Of a DNA stretch of 64,000 bases, positions 25,301-34,373 are shown one piece after another. This stretch comes from Mycoplasmatota bacterium. GTDB lineage: Bacteria > Bacillota_I > Bacilli_A > Haloplasmatales > Haloplasmataceae. The translations under genes and the position numbers were made by a program. The stretch spans positions 2,549,156 to 2,613,155 of the forward strand of contig CP074573.1 of NCBI GenBank assembly GCA_018394295.1, in the 5' to 3' direction. The notes under the pieces were generated by a model. The model made no database searches, had not been told where the DNA came from, and saw only the letters and a program-made list of their open reading frames with translations. Each line of letters opens with the position of its first letter. Within the stretch, counting starts at the first letter, position 1.

Positions 25301-26365
25301 ATGATAAATCTGTATAATAATAGACAACAGTTAATGGTTCATACACAAAATTGGAAAACATATTGGAATAAACGGATTATCTCATTAGATGAAATTGTTC
25401 CTGTAAAACAACGAGATTCTATTCCATCTATTGATAATCCACAATTCGTTAATATTGATACTGCAAAAACTTATCTAAGTGATCAAACACCTGTAATCTC
25501 AGTTCAGTTAGCTGATGAAGCTCGTGCCTATCCGCTTGAAATCATGATGTGGCATGAAATTGTTAATGATACAATCAACGGAATTCCAATCACTGTCACA
25601 TACTGTCCATTATGTAGTTCAGAATTTGTTTATTCAAGTGTTATAAATGGTAAAAATCTTCAGTTTGGAACTTCAGGATTACTAAGGAATTCTAATTTAA
25701 TCATGTATGACCGTCAAACGGATAGTCTATGGCAACAATTTACTGGTCAAGCACTTATAGGTGATTATGTTAACAGAAGTTTAAACCCTATTCCATCAAA
25801 TGTCGTTAGTTTTAAAAAATTTTATTCAACTTATCCTAATGGATTAGTCCTTTCTAGAAATACAGGTTTTATTAGAGATTATGGAAATAATCCTTATGTT
25901 AATTACGACCAAATTACGAACCAACCATTATTTTTTAAAGGAATAATTGATACAAGATTACCAGCTATGCAAAGAGTACTAGGTATACAAATTGGTAATA
26001 ACGCATTAGCTTATCCGCTTTATATGTTACAAACCAGTCCAATTATATATAATACTCTAAATAACGTTGAGTATGTTATATTCTACAATAGTGGAATGTC
26101 ATCAGCATTAGATTCACCTATCATCAGTGAAGGAAAAGATGTTGGAATGACTGGTGTTTTTATTCCCTATTTAAATGGAGAACGATTAAATTTTACAAAA
26201 AATTCTTTAAATCAAATAATTGACACTAATACCAATAGTACATGGAGTATTCTCGGAAAGGCTTTATCTGGTCCATTAAAGGGTATCCAACTGACACCCT
26301 TGGTTCATGGGGATGTATTTTGGTTTGCATGGTCTTCTTTTTATCCAAATACATCTTTAACTTGA
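25301..26365 (+). CDS. DUF3179 domain-containing protein
   Basis: A 354-residue protein with a DUF3179-type core. Recognisable blocks are ARAYPLEIMMWHEIVNDTI, VTYCPLCSSEFVYS (with a CxxC pair), FGTSGLLRNSNLIMYDRQT and SLWQQFTGQALIG, all in the family order. No signal peptide is seen, unlike many relatives. The biochemical role of the family is not known to me; the CxxC pair suggests metal or redox chemistry. An AGGAGG site precedes the ATG and a hairpin follows the stop. Confidence 0.85.
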   Translation: MINLYNNRQQLMVHTQNWKTYWNKRIISLDEIVPVKQRDSIPSIDNPQFVNIDTAKTYLSDQTPVISVQLADEARAYPLEIMMWHEIVNDTINGIPITVTYCPLCSSEFVYSSVINGKNLQFGTSGLLRNSNLIMYDRQTDSLWQQFTGQALIGDYVNRSLNPIPSNVVSFKKFYSTYPNGLVLSRNTGFIRDYGNNPYVNYDQITNQPLFFKGIIDTRLPAMQRVLGIQIGNNALAYPLYMLQTSPIIYNTLNNVEYVIFYNSGMSSALDSPIISEGKDVGMTGVFIPYLNGERLNFTKNSLNQIIDTNTNSTWSILGKALSGPLKGIQLTPLVHGDVFWFAWSSFYPNTSLT

Positions 26366-26423: not shown

Positions 26424-26525
26424 TTAGCAACCATACCCACCATGACAGCATGTGCAGCCGATAATAACAAGTAATATAAATAATACTAAAATAAAAGATG
26501 AACAATAACCATATCCACCAGACAT
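26424..26525 (-). CDS. YjcZ-like small sporulation-associated membrane peptide
   Basis: A 33-residue ORF, translated on the minus strand as MSGGYGYCSSFILVLF, then LLVIIGCTCCHGGYGC. A Gly/Tyr-rich head, one hydrophobic segment and a Gly-rich tail match the YjcZ family annotated in spore-forming bacilli and clostridia. The AAAGGAG site 8 nt upstream supports it. The tail is unusual in carrying four cysteines within ten residues. It is convergent with the DUF3179 gene. Function unknown; spore localisation is inferred from the family. Confidence 0.8.
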   Translation of the reverse strand: MSGGYGYCSSFILVLFILLVIIGCTCCHGGYGC

Positions 26526-26760
26526 TATATATTCTCCTTTCAAATTGAATTTATTATATCTTATTCAAGTTATTTTAAATTGCTTGTGATAAAAGCACAT
26601 TAGTAAAGAAAATGTATAAATACCCAATCAAAACATAATTATTATATATATTATTTAGACTATTACATTTGCCCTTTTTTAAATAATAGGTTAATTCATT
26701 GAACTGAATAGACTGATTAATCATAAAATACATTGAAAAACCACAGAAAGAGGTTCAAAA

Positions 26761-27312
26761 ATGGAAAAAAATAATATGTATCAATGTTCTATGCAACCAA
26801 CTGGGTATTCTATGCAGTGCATGACTCCTAAACAACCTGTTCAACCTATGAACAGTATGCATTCTATGCAGTCTATGGATTATAAACAGCCTGCTCAACC
26901 TATGGATTGTATGCAGCCTATACAATGTATGGATTCTAAACAACCTGTTCAATCTATGGATTGCATGCAACCTATGCAATGCATGACTCCTAAACAACCT
27001 GTTCAACCTATGAACCCTATGCATTCTATGCAGTGCATGACTCCTAAGCAACCTGTTCAATCTATGGATTACATGCAGCCTATGCAATGCATGACTCCTA
27101 AACAACCTGTTCAATCTATGGATTGCATGCAGCCTATGCAATGCATGACTCCTAAACAACCTGTTCAATCTATGGATTGCATGCAGCCTATGCAATGCAT
27201 GACTCCTAAACAACCTGTTCAATCTATGAACCCTATGCATTCTATGCAGTGCATGGATTATCAATGTCCTATGTATACTATGCCAAAAAAAACCTATTAT
27301 GATGAAGAATAA
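26761..27312 (+). CDS. Met/Gln/Cys/Pro-rich tandem-repeat protein
   Basis: A 183-residue protein made of a 17-residue head, eight 18-residue repeats and a 22-residue tail ending in TYYDEE. The repeat consensus is MQCMTPKQPVQSMDCMQP, so each unit carries one or two Cys and four Met with regular Pro. No signal peptide, membrane segment or known domain. AAAGAGG precedes the ATG. It converges on a YcaO gene across a shared terminator, and spore-type genes lie on either side. Two readings are possible: a spore coat or metal-binding protein, or a repeated substrate of the YcaO enzyme. Confidence 0.8.
   Translation: MEKNNMYQCSMQPTGYSMQCMTPKQPVQPMNSMHSMQSMDYKQPAQPMDCMQPIQCMDSKQPVQSMDCMQPMQCMTPKQPVQPMNPMHSMQCMTPKQPVQSMDYMQPMQCMTPKQPVQSMDCMQPMQCMTPKQPVQSMDCMQPMQCMTPKQPVQSMNPMHSMQCMDYQCPMYTMPKKTYYDEE
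26812..27243 (+). repeat. Eight 54-bp in-frame tandem repeats
   Basis: Eight 54-nt units encode the 18-residue repeats. Units five to eight are nearly identical at the DNA level, while the first three are more diverged, which suggests recent expansion by unequal exchange or slippage at the 3' side. Confidence 0.92.
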
Positions 27313-27343
27313 ATAACTATCATAATTAATTTTAATAAGTTTT

Positions 27344-27372
27344 AGAGCGTATTTTGTCATACGCTCTTTATT
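27344..27372. terminator. Bidirectional terminator between repeat-protein gene and ycaO gene
   Basis: AGAGCGTAT and ATACGCTCT form a 9-bp perfect stem with a 6-nt loop and T's after it. It separates the convergent genes. Confidence 0.85.
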
Positions 27373-27388
27373 TTTATCTATTTAATTG

Positions 27389-29194
27389 TTATATTATATT
27401 CCTTTGATCAATAAAATTTATATTATAAATATCTTTTAATACCATATAAACCTGTTTTAGATTTTGATATGAACAGGTATTTAATTTAGGACATTTATCA
27501 CATTGCCAACAATGTAATAAACCAAATTGATTAAAAATTAAATCTGGTTGATTAAATTTTTCAATTACATCATTAATCATATTTTTAGGATAAAAATAAG
27601 CTAAAGCATTAATACAATCTTGCTTACTTAAATGATTTATCTTTGTTCCCATATAATCTCTTACACATTTGTAAAAGGTATAGATTTCATGATTAAATTT
27701 ATTTACAATCATATAACTTAAATAGTTATCTAATATATTATATGCTTTTTTAAAATTACCCACTTTATAATTTAACGCCACTCTAAATAAATCAATTGAT
27801 TGATAATACCAAGGATAAGTATCTTCAATATTAAAACTTAGAAACTGAAGGATAGAGCCTTCACCATGAATATCATATTTATCCATTAAACCTATTAGTT
27901 CAATAATACCATCATCTGATAATTTATCAATATTTCGTATTGATTGTTTAATCTTTATATAGGCTACATATTCATCCAACGTTTTAAAATCATCTATTTT
28001 TTCCACTTCACTAAATCCAGGAACAATCATGTGATAACTTGGGAAACCTAAATAAGAAACATCACGTACAAAAACATGGTAGTTTTCTCTTCTTAATAAG
28101 TTTAATAAATGGATCATCATATCTTTGTTGGATGATTCTTTTGGCATACTGTAATCATTAAAAGGATAACTATAATTTTTTGAAAAAAATTCACTTTGAT
28201 AATAACCAGATCCATTAACTAGAATACCCATCAAATTTTTATCTTCATCAACTATTGGTGGATTGTATGAATACTCTTTTATCCCCATCATTTGATTTAC
28301 ATCTTGACCTTGAAGTAATTCAGTTAATGTTCTTTCCATCGCTATTTCCATTTGTGGATGAGATCCAAATTTAACAAAATAATGTTGATTATCTCGATTA
28401 ATAAATATTGCTCCAACGACTGGATAGTTTTTTCCCAATGAACAATCTTTCATAATAACTTTATAATTACCTTTTTGTTCAATTCGAGAAATCATATCCA
28501 TAATTCTTGGGCACTGTTTCAAATATTCTCGTGGAATTGTCGGAGGACATATTTTTTCTAACACTATTTTTCTATTTACATACCGTTCAAACACTTCTGA
28601 AAGTCCTTGGACTAATGCTTCTTCAATCGTATTTCCTGCACACATGCCATTAGACATATACATTTTAGAAACCATTTTAACAGGAATATTAGAAATATTT
28701 TTAGTCATTAAATTTAAATATGGAATTGTTACTAATTCATTAGGGGTATCTTCATAAGATATCATTTTCCATCTATTAAACAATTTTTTAATATCTGTTT
28801 TATTATCTAACAATGCCATTTGAATCTGTGTCCATTCCTCGTTGAGTATTAAAAAATCTTTTATACTTGTATATCTCTCATCAGGGGCATAGAAAAAATG
28901 AAGATAGTTTAAGGCACCTGGTCCTAAATCAATCGATAATCGATAAAAGGATTGATTCTGTAACCTTTCCATTAACTCTCCATAAGCACTAGCTAATGCA
29001 TATTCAATAGACGTCCCTTTTCCATTCGTTGCTAACTTTGTCCCCCTAATAGAAACACTAAGAGAATAATATCCATCTACAGAATTTTTCCAATTTGATT
29101 CAATAGGTATTAAGTTATAACTATATAATATATTTTTTATTTTATCAACAGTATTAATCGGGGAATCATCTTTATATTTAGTCTCATTAAACAT
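27389..29194 (-). CDS. YcaO-family protein (ATP-dependent peptide backbone activation)
   Basis: A 601-residue YcaO protein, near the length of the E. coli type (about 586). The ATP and metal-binding blocks are seen as NGKGTSIEYALASAYGELMER (residues about 57-77), NTIEEALVQGLSEVFERYV and GSHPQMEIAMERTLTELLQG. A helical C-terminal region (about 420-560) follows and ends in a Cys cluster, CWQCDKCPKLNTC. YcaO enzymes use ATP to activate backbone amides and form azolines, thioamides or amidines, usually with partner proteins. No dehydrogenase, E1-like or TfuA partner is in the window. The convergent repeat protein is a candidate substrate, by proximity only. Confidence 0.88.
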   Translation of the reverse strand: MFNETKYKDDSPINTVDKIKNILYSYNLIPIESNWKNSVDGYYSLSVSIRGTKLATNGKGTSIEYALASAYGELMERLQNQSFYRLSIDLGPGALNYLHFFYAPDERYTSIKDFLILNEEWTQIQMALLDNKTDIKKLFNRWKMISYEDTPNELVTIPYLNLMTKNISNIPVKMVSKMYMSNGMCAGNTIEEALVQGLSEVFERYVNRKIVLEKICPPTIPREYLKQCPRIMDMISRIEQKGNYKVIMKDCSLGKNYPVVGAIFINRDNQHYFVKFGSHPQMEIAMERTLTELLQGQDVNQMMGIKEYSYNPPIVDEDKNLMGILVNGSGYYQSEFFSKNYSYPFNDYSMPKESSNKDMMIHLLNLLRRENYHVFVRDVSYLGFPSYHMIVPGFSEVEKIDDFKTLDEYVAYIKIKQSIRNIDKLSDDGIIELIGLMDKYDIHGEGSILQFLSFNIEDTYPWYYQSIDLFRVALNYKVGNFKKAYNILDNYLSYMIVNKFNHEIYTFYKCVRDYMGTKINHLSKQDCINALAYFYPKNMINDVIEKFNQPDLIFNQFGLLHCWQCDKCPKLNTCSYQNLKQVYMVLKDIYNINFIDQRNII

Positions 29195-30716: not shown

Positions 30717-32258
30717 TTAAGAGCTACTAACAATTTCGTATGGTCTCATCATTTCATGATCCTCATGTTCTAATATATGGCAATGCCAAGGGTATAATCC
30801 AGAAAATGGGCCAAATCGCATAATTATTCTTGTCATTTCACCAGGATTTGCTCTTACGGTATCTTTCCATCCCTTTTCATTTAAATCAGGTAATTCTACT
30901 GGTCCAGTAGTTAATATTTTTCCTGTTTTCTTATAGTGTTCGACATCAAAAGGCTGTCTACTGATGATTTGAAAATTAACTAAATGAATGTGGATTGGAT
31001 GAGTGGAATTTGCTAGATTAATTAAATTCCAAACCTCTATACTACCTAATTCTGGTTTTATAGTGATTGGATTATCCCACCTTTTTCTATCAAGAAGAAG
31101 TAATGCTCTTCCATATTGATCTGTTTCCCTAACAAGCGTAAGATTCCTTTTTAGTTTTGCGTTTTTCTCTTCCAAAGGAATTATTGTACTTAACCTATTA
31201 GGAATCCTACAATAGTCAATACCAGAAAGTGGAAGAGATACTCTAAACTGCATAATCTGACCATCGGTATTTAAATCTACAGATTTTCCGCTTGGATATG
31301 GTGAAGGAGCATCATTAACAAATACAATATTACGCCCATCAAATTTAGAAAAATCTATTATAACATCGGCTCGCTCCGCTGGTGCTAACAAAATTTGGTT
31401 GGTTATAATTGTCTCTTGAAGAAGACCTCCATCAGTTCCTATTTGATAAATTGGTTGCCCTGAAGAAAGACTTATTCGATAGAATCTTGAATTAGAACCA
31501 TTGATTATACGAAATCGATATTTTCTTGGTTCAACCTCTAAATAGGGCCAAACCTTTCCGTTAACTAATATATTCTCACCAAAAAAATCAGGTACTACAG
31601 ATGGAAAAACATTTGCAACAGGTGGATTTGGTTCTGTTGGGTAATAAAGAGAACCATCAGCATTAAAGGTTCTATCTTGGATAAGCAAAAGTGTTTCATA
31701 GCTTCCTTTAGGAAGATTAAGACATTTTTCTAAAGGACCCCGAATAATATAGGCTCCCGCTAATCCTGCATAAACGTTAAGACGGGTTATACCAATAGCA
31801 TGGGCATGATACCAAAGCGTAGACCCACGTTGATTATTAGTATAATCATATATTTTTCTAGTAAAATAAGGTCCTACTTCTTTATATCCTTTTGTAAACC
31901 ATGCTTCAGGATAACCATCACTATCCGGTCTCACAACTCCACCATGTAGATGAATTACTGTTCTAACTTTAGGTTTATTTGATTCAGCTCCGTGTACTGT
32001 CGTATCAACAGGAAGTAAATGTCTATCTTGAAGGTCGTTTATCCACTTCACCTTAATCCACTCATTACGATTCACCTCAAATGTAGGTCCTGGATAATGC
32101 CCATTGAATCCCCATACTGTTGTTTCTGGCAAATCTCTATGGAGTTTTTGCTTAAATTGTTGCATTCGCACTTCATAATAAGGTACTCCATCCATTTCAC
32201 CTGTTGTCTTTAATGTTTTAATGATAGGAAGTTTGTCTACAAACTTGGATAAAATCAT
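30717..32258 (-). CDS. cotA: CotA-type multicopper oxidase (spore coat laccase / bilirubin oxidase)
   Basis: A 513-residue three-cupredoxin oxidase. All copper motifs are visible: VIHLHGG near residue 102, LWYHAHAIG, HPIHIHLVNF and the C-terminal WHCHILEHEDHEMM that binds type 1 copper (Cys, His, Met). The TVWGFNGHYPGPTFE block near the N-terminus matches CotA. There is no signal peptide, as for spore coat laccases that are assembled from the mother cell. An AAAGGAGA site precedes the ATG. Confidence 0.95.
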   Translation of the reverse strand: MILSKFVDKLPIIKTLKTTGEMDGVPYYEVRMQQFKQKLHRDLPETTVWGFNGHYPGPTFEVNRNEWIKVKWINDLQDRHLLPVDTTVHGAESNKPKVRTVIHLHGGVVRPDSDGYPEAWFTKGYKEVGPYFTRKIYDYTNNQRGSTLWYHAHAIGITRLNVYAGLAGAYIIRGPLEKCLNLPKGSYETLLLIQDRTFNADGSLYYPTEPNPPVANVFPSVVPDFFGENILVNGKVWPYLEVEPRKYRFRIINGSNSRFYRISLSSGQPIYQIGTDGGLLQETIITNQILLAPAERADVIIDFSKFDGRNIVFVNDAPSPYPSGKSVDLNTDGQIMQFRVSLPLSGIDYCRIPNRLSTIIPLEEKNAKLKRNLTLVRETDQYGRALLLLDRKRWDNPITIKPELGSIEVWNLINLANSTHPIHIHLVNFQIISRQPFDVEHYKKTGKILTTGPVELPDLNEKGWKDTVRANPGEMTRIIMRFGPFSGLYPWHCHILEHEDHEMMRPYEIVSSS

Positions 32259-32900: not shown

Positions 32901-34373
32901 ACCTATATAGTAGACACGAAATAAAAAAGTGTTGGTTATGTAGGTATTTTATTTTATAATAGAGAAAGTTGAAGACGGGAGTAATAATAATGAGTAAAAT
33001 AAGTATTAAAGAATATATTAAAGAACATCGTCAAGAATTGGAACAGAATCCTAATGTGCTTAAGGTAGGTAAGATACTTCAATATACCCCTAAATTTAAG
33101 ATTAAGGCTGTAGAGATGAGAAAACAAGGATATCCAATGAGGGAAATATTCGAACTAAATAAACTACCATTTAATAAAGATAAAAATGATATGTATGTAC
33201 TAAAGTGGATAAAGCAATATGATGAACAAGGAAAAGAATCCTTCTATAAGAAAAATAGAGGTCGTAATAAAAATGGCAAATCAGGACGACCAAAGAAAGA
33301 AATAGAATTATCTAGTGATGAAAAAGTACTGATCCAAGAGAAATTAATAGAAGTCCTAAGAAAAGAAAATGAAGAATTAAAAAAAGAATACAGGCTAGGA
33401 AAGGAAGTGAAACAAAGCGGAAATGAGTTTAAAATTAAGCCTACTCAAGATATTTTCCGTTATATACATAAATTAAAAGATCAAGTTAAAATATCCATTG
33501 AGTTATTATGTAAATATTATGAAGTATCTCGATCAGGTTATTATAAGTGGGTTAAAACAATACCTAATAGACAAAAAAGAGAAGAACAGGATTACGCTGA
33601 TTTTGTAGTTATAAAAAAAACATGGTTAAAACATAATAAGAAGCATGGATACTTAAGAATAAATATGGATTTAAAAAACGATGAAGGCATTGTCATGAAT
33701 CCTAAGAAGATTTATAGACTAATGAAGAAATATGGAATACGAGCTGAAATACGTAAGGTAAACCCTTATTTAGGGATTATGCAGGCAAATAAGGAACACA
33801 ATTATTTTGAAAACAAATTAGATAGACAGTTTGATGTTAAAGAGCCAGATACTGTATTTGTGACCGACATAACTTATTTAATCTATGGTAACCAAAGATA
33901 TTATTTATCTGTCGTTAAAGAGCTTTGTACGAGAGAAATAGTGGCTTGGAAGCTATCTAGAGGATTAAGTTTAAATTTATCACTTGAAATAATTGATCAA
34001 CTTGTTAAAAAATACGGAAAGAAAAAGTTGAAAAACACCATGATTCATTCAGACCAAGGTGTTCATTATACAAATCCGTCATATGTAAATAAATTGAAAG
34101 AATTAAATATAATACAATCTATGTCTAGAAGAGGTAATTGCCTGGATAACGCTAAAATGGAAACATTCTTTGGTCATTTCAAAGATGAATGTGATTATCA
34201 ACAGGCTAAAGACTTTTATGAGTTATATAAAATTGTTGATAACTATATGAGATATTATAACTGTAAGAGATATCAATGGACATTAAATAAGATGGCCCCT
34301 ACTCAATATAGAAACCATCTTAAAGCAGCTTAATGAAATTTTTACTTTTTTTATTTCTGTCTACTTGACAGGT
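32901..34373 (+). mobile_element. IS3-family insertion sequence (IS-A)
   Basis: An element of about 1.47 kb with imperfect terminal inverted repeats: ACCTATATAGTAGACA (32901-32916) and, at the right, the complement of ACCTGTCAAGTAGACA (34358-34373). The homology continues inward through GAAATAAAAAA. It carries one transposase gene. No clear target-site duplication could be read. Confidence 0.85.
32990..34333 (+). CDS. IS3-family transposase, single fused reading frame
   Basis: A 447-residue transposase. Residues 1-140 correspond to OrfA, with a helix-turn-helix and a charged coiled segment. The remainder is OrfB: an HTH_21 motif (LLCKYYEVSRSGYYKW) and an rve integrase core with the DDE triad in VTDITYL, IHSDQGVHY and DNAKMETFFG. 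In most IS3 elements OrfA and OrfB overlap and need a -1 frameshift; here they are in one frame with no interruption. A GGGAG site lies before the ATG at 32990. It looks intact. Confidence 0.92.
   Translation: MSKISIKEYIKEHRQELEQNPNVLKVGKILQYTPKFKIKAVEMRKQGYPMREIFELNKLPFNKDKNDMYVLKWIKQYDEQGKESFYKKNRGRNKNGKSGRPKKEIELSSDEKVLIQEKLIEVLRKENEELKKEYRLGKEVKQSGNEFKIKPTQDIFRYIHKLKDQVKISIELLCKYYEVSRSGYYKWVKTIPNRQKREEQDYADFVVIKKTWLKHNKKHGYLRINMDLKNDEGIVMNPKKIYRLMKKYGIRAEIRKVNPYLGIMQANKEHNYFENKLDRQFDVKEPDTVFVTDITYLIYGNQRYYLSVVKELCTREIVAWKLSRGLSLNLSLEIIDQLVKKYGKKKLKNTMIHSDQGVHYTNPSYVNKLKELNIIQSMSRRGNCLDNAKMETFFGHFKDECDYQQAKDFYELYKIVDNYMRYYNCKRYQWTLNKMAPTQYRNHLKAA

Follow-up and report, generated by a model that had tools for sequence, protein, structure and literature searches.

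Work published in 2026 established that YcaO of Escherichia coli (EcYcaO) directly thioamidates Met82 in the ribosomal protein uL16; it uses ATP, Mg and sulfide and no TfuA or RRE partner (PMC13063428). This activity was tied to a very acidic enzyme surface, whereas the genomic context of the few members of the group that are not acidic suggests a link with RiPPs (PMC13063428). McrA and uL16 are the only two proteins described as thioamidated by YcaO enzymes; further protein substrates are expected, and EcYcaO is noted to have relatives that are not acidic and serve other functions (PMC13063428). Thioamidation of McrA, like formation of the thioamitides, belongs to YcaO-TfuA systems (PMC5589413, PMC8120280). 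Dedicated modification of repetitive coat proteins is described from Bacillus subtilis, in which CotH modifies the tandem repeats of CotB and CotG and the genes cluster (PMC7821199). Our literature search found no paper that connects YcaO to the spore coat; a single paper contained both terms, each of them once. Here we describe a stand-alone YcaO gene that lies beside, and probably forms a functional pair with, the gene of a Met-rich tandem-repeat protein in a spore-former of the family Haloplasmataceae.

Results

Layout of the gene pair

The window (the whole 64-kb stretch of DNA that was analysed) contains the two genes in convergent orientation and 76 nt apart, both open reading frames being found as the original prediction had described them (Table 1).

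Table 1. Positions in the window of the gene pair and associated features.
Feature	Position	Strand	Evidence
Proposed substrate: repeat protein of 183 aa, rich in Met, Gln, Pro and Cys	26761..27312	+	ORF, TRF; orthologue known from Inordinaticella
Proposed modifying enzyme: YcaO of 601 aa	27389..29194	-	PF02624, 175 bits; NF040716, 323 bits; ATP/Mg positions kept
Eight 54-nt (18-residue) repeat units	26821..27252	+	TRF
Gene of a YjcZ-like peptide (39 aa), next to and divergent from the repeat gene	26424..26543	-	PF09680, TIGR01732; adjoins the repeat gene in Inordinaticella too
Sigma-K-like promoter before the repeat gene, AC-N17-CATAAAATA	26703..26730	+	Pattern; distance equal in Inordinaticella
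Terminator-like hairpin between the convergent genes	27344..27367	+	9 pairs, 4 GC, U-tract
C-terminal CxxCxxCx5C insert of YcaO (C562-C574)	27473..27511	-	Invariant in Inordinaticella orthologue; absent from aligned E. coli-type YcaO proteins

The plus strand was taken as the coding strand of the repeat gene because it carries a ribosome-binding site and a conserved start and upstream region, and has an orthologue with the same N- and C-terminus. A 201-aa open frame with HRLNRLFRSHAL units runs antisense to the repeats (window 26755-27360, minus strand) and is probably a by-product of the repeat's codon use. The YjcZ-like peptide scored above the cut-offs of both its families (PF09680, 33.5 bits, cut-off 21; TIGR01732, 27.9 bits, cut-off 21.35), and its gene is adjoined by that of a DUF3179 protein (PF11376, 343 bits; window 25301-26365), the Inordinaticella orthologue of which (L044:2308-3378) also lies between YjcZ-like genes, away from the YcaO pair. 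Beyond the YcaO gene, a multicopper oxidase (window 30717-32258) had as its best match the O-aminophenol oxidase PhsA (324 bits, cut-off 950) and is CotA-like by position only, and an IS3-type transposase (window 32969-34333) had many DNA matches in related genomes.

The YcaO enzyme

The 601-aa protein is a genuine YcaO with the C-terminal CxxCxxCx5C cluster that had been predicted for it: its YcaO domain matched PF02624 in Pfam (175 bits, E=3e-51), and the four cysteines are C562, C565, C568 and C574. It is the sole YcaO of the 3.29-Mb source genome. Its best curated match was the E. coli YcaO equivalog (NF040716, 322.8 bits, under the cut-off of 700) and the best solved structure matched was that of EcYcaO (E=1e-52, full-length similarity), with lower scores for the SagD type (TIGR03604, 60.8 bits, cut-off 219) and methan_mark_1 (48 bits, far under the cut-off of 365). 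At the positions that bind ATP and Mg in the EcYcaO structure, residues E75, E78, E191, E199, E202, R286 and E290 (E. coli numbering) were all kept; the differences at the positions compared were S16>T and S184>C.

Like EcYcaO, the enzyme combines the same ATP/Mg residues and full-length similarity with a stand-alone state, lacking an RRE, TfuA and an E1 partner, and a Met-bearing target is plausible for it. It differs from EcYcaO in its 25–27% identity, its 323 bits where 700 are asked for, its pI of 6.3 rather than 4.4 and its Cys4 insert, and in that its gene is paired, in a spore-forming host, with that of a repeat protein. In a small tree, the rows of which are of unusual composition, the window and Inordinaticella proteins formed a long branch of their own (length 2.4) apart from six other YcaO proteins, with 25-27% identity to the E. 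coli group; on sequence comparison, the enzyme is nearest that group, yet on a separate branch. The pI values of the two proteins (6.26 and 6.18, against 4.4-4.6 for four other YcaO proteins) fit the non-acidic, RiPP-associated members of the EcYcaO group (PMC13063428).

The Cys4 insert lies between a conserved GL and the last helix and was seen in none of the YcaO tails compared, and all four of its cysteines are invariant in the Inordinaticella enzyme, which shares 74% identity. The C-terminal TPR-like domain YcaO_C (PF18381) scored 20.1 bits against a cut-off of 26.1, and the protein ends in ...FIDQRNII, with no PxPxP-like end. An AlphaFold2 model made from the two sequences had a pLDDT of 37.

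The claim that no usual partner is present held up. TfuA (PF07812) had 0 matches in the source genome, and Pfam searches of the neighbours tested (23.9-32.8 kb) recovered neither an E1-like (Ocin-ThiF) protein nor a nitroreductase-type dehydrogenase. The proposed class of product is that of the YcaO-TfuA systems, and the enzyme has some similarity to methan_mark_1 (the 48 bits given above), but TfuA is missing from the source genome and that score is far under the cut-off. With LAP/TOMM (SagD-type) clusters the locus has the YcaO fold and ATP chemistry in common, but not the PxPxP-like end, nor E1-like or dehydrogenase genes among the neighbours tested, nor a SagD score anywhere near the cut-off. 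A role of YcaO as accessory factor to RimO in S12 methylthiolation, the older view, was ruled out since neither YcaO-bearing genome has RimO: in the source genome (G000) and in Inordinaticella (G003), only MiaB and MtaB exceeded their cut-offs. The sole true RimO found in the family is encoded in G005 (L020, C17:27221-28504), a genome without YcaO.

The repeat protein

Residues 21-164 of the repeat protein comprise eight 18-residue units with the consensus MTPKQPVQSMDCMQPMQC (TRF: period 54 nt, 7.8 copies, 86% match, score 586). Met is invariant at unit positions 1, 10 and 13 and present at position 16 in 7/8 units, and Lys, Gln and Pro are invariant at positions 4-6, 8 and 17; Cys18 occurs in 7/8 units and Cys12 in only 4/8. 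The number and length of the units therefore stand as predicted, although ‘nearly perfect’ was a slightly generous description and Cys is less regular than Met. The protein contains 38 Met (21%), has a pI near neutral, and shows no evident signal peptide and no obvious leader.

Comparison with the orthologue from Inordinaticella fortuita 4B identified Met spacing as the common feature of the two proteins. In both, Met recurs at i, i+3 far more often than in shuffles (24 observed against 7.6, 9 against 2.7 and 11 against 3.5; p ~0.0002), whereas the number and context of Cys differ, there being ~4 Cys per 86-88 aa piece of the Inordinaticella protein. N-terminal MEKN and C-terminal YDEE are also common to both.

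Other candidate homologues were rejected. Phage and plasmid matches were of low complexity (20-33% identity, to unrelated repeat proteins), as were three weak matches in class genomes, of which one (L058) was examined and proved to be antisense to a GPT-repeat gene of collagen-like type; matches to amelogenin and glutenin were below cut-off and reflect composition.

Conservation and distribution of the pair

Among 100 related genomes, one more carries the YcaO (74% identity), that of I. fortuita 4B, which belongs to the same family and another genus. There a Met-rich repeat ORF converges on the YcaO gene at a contig end and the rest of the gene starts a second contig (L003, L009); we infer from a common 24-residue repeat that the two ends join into one gene. 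The repeat unit thus has 24 residues in Inordinaticella and 18 in the source genome. The YjcZ gene, upstream of the pair, is conserved together with the intergenic region between it and the repeat gene, whereas the gene flanking YcaO is ligA in Inordinaticella and a cold-shock gene here, and in Inordinaticella DUF3179 is on another contig than the pair. As neighbours outside the block differ between the two genomes, the conserved unit is yjcZ - repeat - ycaO. In Inordinaticella, a DUF4397 protein with a Met/Gln/Pro/Tyr/Cys-rich middle is encoded at L009:3171-4010, ~3 kb away from the repeat gene.

Across eight family genomes, both genes occur in 2/8 and neither was found in 6/8, with no genome having one alone (1/28 by Fisher's exact test, for genomes that are related to one another); the six include G001, a sister species in the same genus as the source. 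YcaO is rare more widely (2/392 genomes at E<=1e-20; any PF02624 match in 5/395). No additional orthologue turned up when 395 class genomes were searched with each of the two repeat proteins; the sensitivity of this search is limited, as either orthologue hardly recovers the other (E=3e-4 one way, no match at 0.01 the other). A contig scan with N-terminal patterns returned Inordinaticella alone, and a scan of viral sequences gave a single YcaO, of E. coli-like type.

In G005 (85% complete, without YcaO), a 236-aa Met/Pro/Gln/Cys-rich protein ending in FEEE is encoded near YjcZ genes, and so such a composition does not need YcaO; this protein has no tandem 18-24-residue units and its gene no promoter-like element. 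The region (L065:2469-4836) also contains four YjcZ-like peptide genes in a row and a peptide deformylase-like gene.

Promoter and sporulation context

Upstream of the repeat gene, both genomes contain AC-N17-CATAAAATA at -58/-39 from the ATG, which fits the sigma-K consensus AC-N17-CATANNNTA. A sigma-K-like pattern with a 16-17 nt spacer had 5 matches in the whole 64-kb window, both strands included. The AC-N17 element is compatible with the outcome of a genome-wide study, in which longer elements are separated by 14-16 nt (PMC517825). No promoter element shared by the two genomes was found before the YcaO gene. SpoIVA, a core spore protein, is encoded in 8/8 family genomes, and the sigma-K-like element and SpoIVA together make a late mother-cell (sigma-K-type), spore-surface protein the best reading of the repeat gene from its sequence context; the protein would then sit in the spore coat. 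A coat role had been suggested from the nearby YjcZ and CotA genes. The spore context is supported by conservation of the YjcZ neighbour and of the sigma-K-like promoter, and by the presence of SpoIVA throughout the family, but membership of CotA is unsupported: around the Inordinaticella pair, nothing matched the CotA-like multicopper oxidase gene at the DNA level.

Discussion

Our preferred reading, to which we give a probability of roughly 0.42, is that the two genes form a module of late sporulation: the YcaO would be dedicated to the repeat protein of the coat and alter its backbone, thioamidation being the likeliest reaction. One gene, of sigma-K type, would encode a spore-surface protein built of Met-rich tandem repeats, and the other a YcaO that works without partners. 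The enzyme would bind ATP-Mg and phosphorylate, and so activate, backbone amides of the repeat protein; attack by a sulfide source would then yield thioamides at recurrent positions in the repeats, the evenly spaced Met residues or positions next to them being the likeliest sites, and the Cys4 insert may bind metal or serve in sulfur handling. That the repeat protein is the substrate of the adjoining YcaO seems to us somewhat better than an even bet; that the product is a thioamide is tentative, at rather under even odds; and the whole statement, of a spore coat made partly of a Met-rich repeat protein thioamidated at many backbone positions by a stand-alone YcaO, is more doubtful again. The proposal that YcaO acts on the repeat protein gains from the finding of the pair, convergent, in a second genus despite a changed repeat unit, and from the failure to find either gene in the other six family genomes. 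Its implied chemistry, heterocyclisation of Cys, Ser or Thr, has become less likely, because the enzyme is nearest the partner-free EcYcaO, which thioamidates at Met, and because Met spacing and not Cys is conserved. Several points count against the preferred reading: EcYcaO acts on folded uL16 and not on peptides (PMC13063428), whereas the repeat protein is probably disordered; no sulfur donor was identified; no shared promoter element was found before the YcaO gene; G005 has a protein of similar composition but no YcaO; and the repeat search has low sensitivity.

Passive inheritance could account for the adjacency, since the pair occurs in two genomes only and these are relatives. The genes would then be neighbours by common descent, with an unmodified coat protein and a YcaO that acts elsewhere or is vestigial; the similar Met-rich protein of G005, without YcaO, and the convergent arrangement, which is not an operon, both suit such a coincidence. 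We nevertheless think it unlikely, given that other genes around the pair have not been kept as neighbours, that both genes were not found in 6/8 family genomes, and that the enzyme retains its catalytic residues and 74% identity. A separate rival is that YcaO acts on the ribosome, by thioamidating uL16 Met82 as in E. coli, its position beside a coat gene being accidental. Full-length similarity to EcYcaO and a uL16 RMG loop with its Met would suit this target, but the loop is present in the source genome and in six other family genomes, identical whether or not they have YcaO, and so counts neither for nor against it. A pI of 6.3 rather than 4.4 (enzymes of the uL16 type are proposed to be recognisable by their acidity; PMC13063428), the separate branch (length 2.4, 25-27% identity) and the pairing kept in a second genus make a ribosomal role improbable.

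Two further explanations retain the repeat protein as substrate and alter the chemistry or its purpose. Azoline formation is the commonest YcaO reaction, and the window repeats offer 14 Cys and many Ser and Thr for cyclodehydration of the LAP/TOMM kind, giving a heterocycle-bearing coat protein. Against such a product stand the SagD-type score (61 bits, cut-off 219), the lack of a PxPxP-like end of the sort seen in the TOMM-type L012 and L013, the lack of E1-like or dehydrogenase partners among the neighbours tested, and lack of conservation of Cys in the orthologue (~4 per 86-88 aa piece), so that we hold it to be rather a long shot. Alternatively, MxxM, Cys and His might bind Cu(I) in connection with the multicopper oxidase at 30717-32258, with YcaO supplying further ligands (thioamides or azolines), much as in the copper-binding RiPPs made by MNIO enzymes (bufferins). 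MxxM spacing with Cys and His does occur in both repeat proteins; however, the oxidase gene has no DNA match near the Inordinaticella pair, no copper transport gene was found among the neighbours tested and no signal peptide is evident, and we regard copper binding as very improbable.

If the preferred reading, thioamidation of a coat repeat protein, is right, the arrangement would be comparable in logic to that of CotB, CotH and CotG, in which a dedicated enzyme gene is clustered with tandem-repeat coat genes and the clustering is kept in related species (PMC7821199). There is no homology between the two systems: the repeats modified by the kinase CotH are rich in Ser, whereas here a YcaO is set beside Met-rich repeats. 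The locus presents a known kind of enzyme with a proposed new class of substrate, and is a small and concrete candidate, consisting of one enzyme and one repetitive substrate that is probably expressed in sporulation. A repeat substrate would allow site selection to be read many times in one molecule. The repeat protein would be a new class of YcaO protein substrate, after McrA and uL16, and its modification, of a kind new to the coat, would add backbone thioamidation to spore-coat chemistry.
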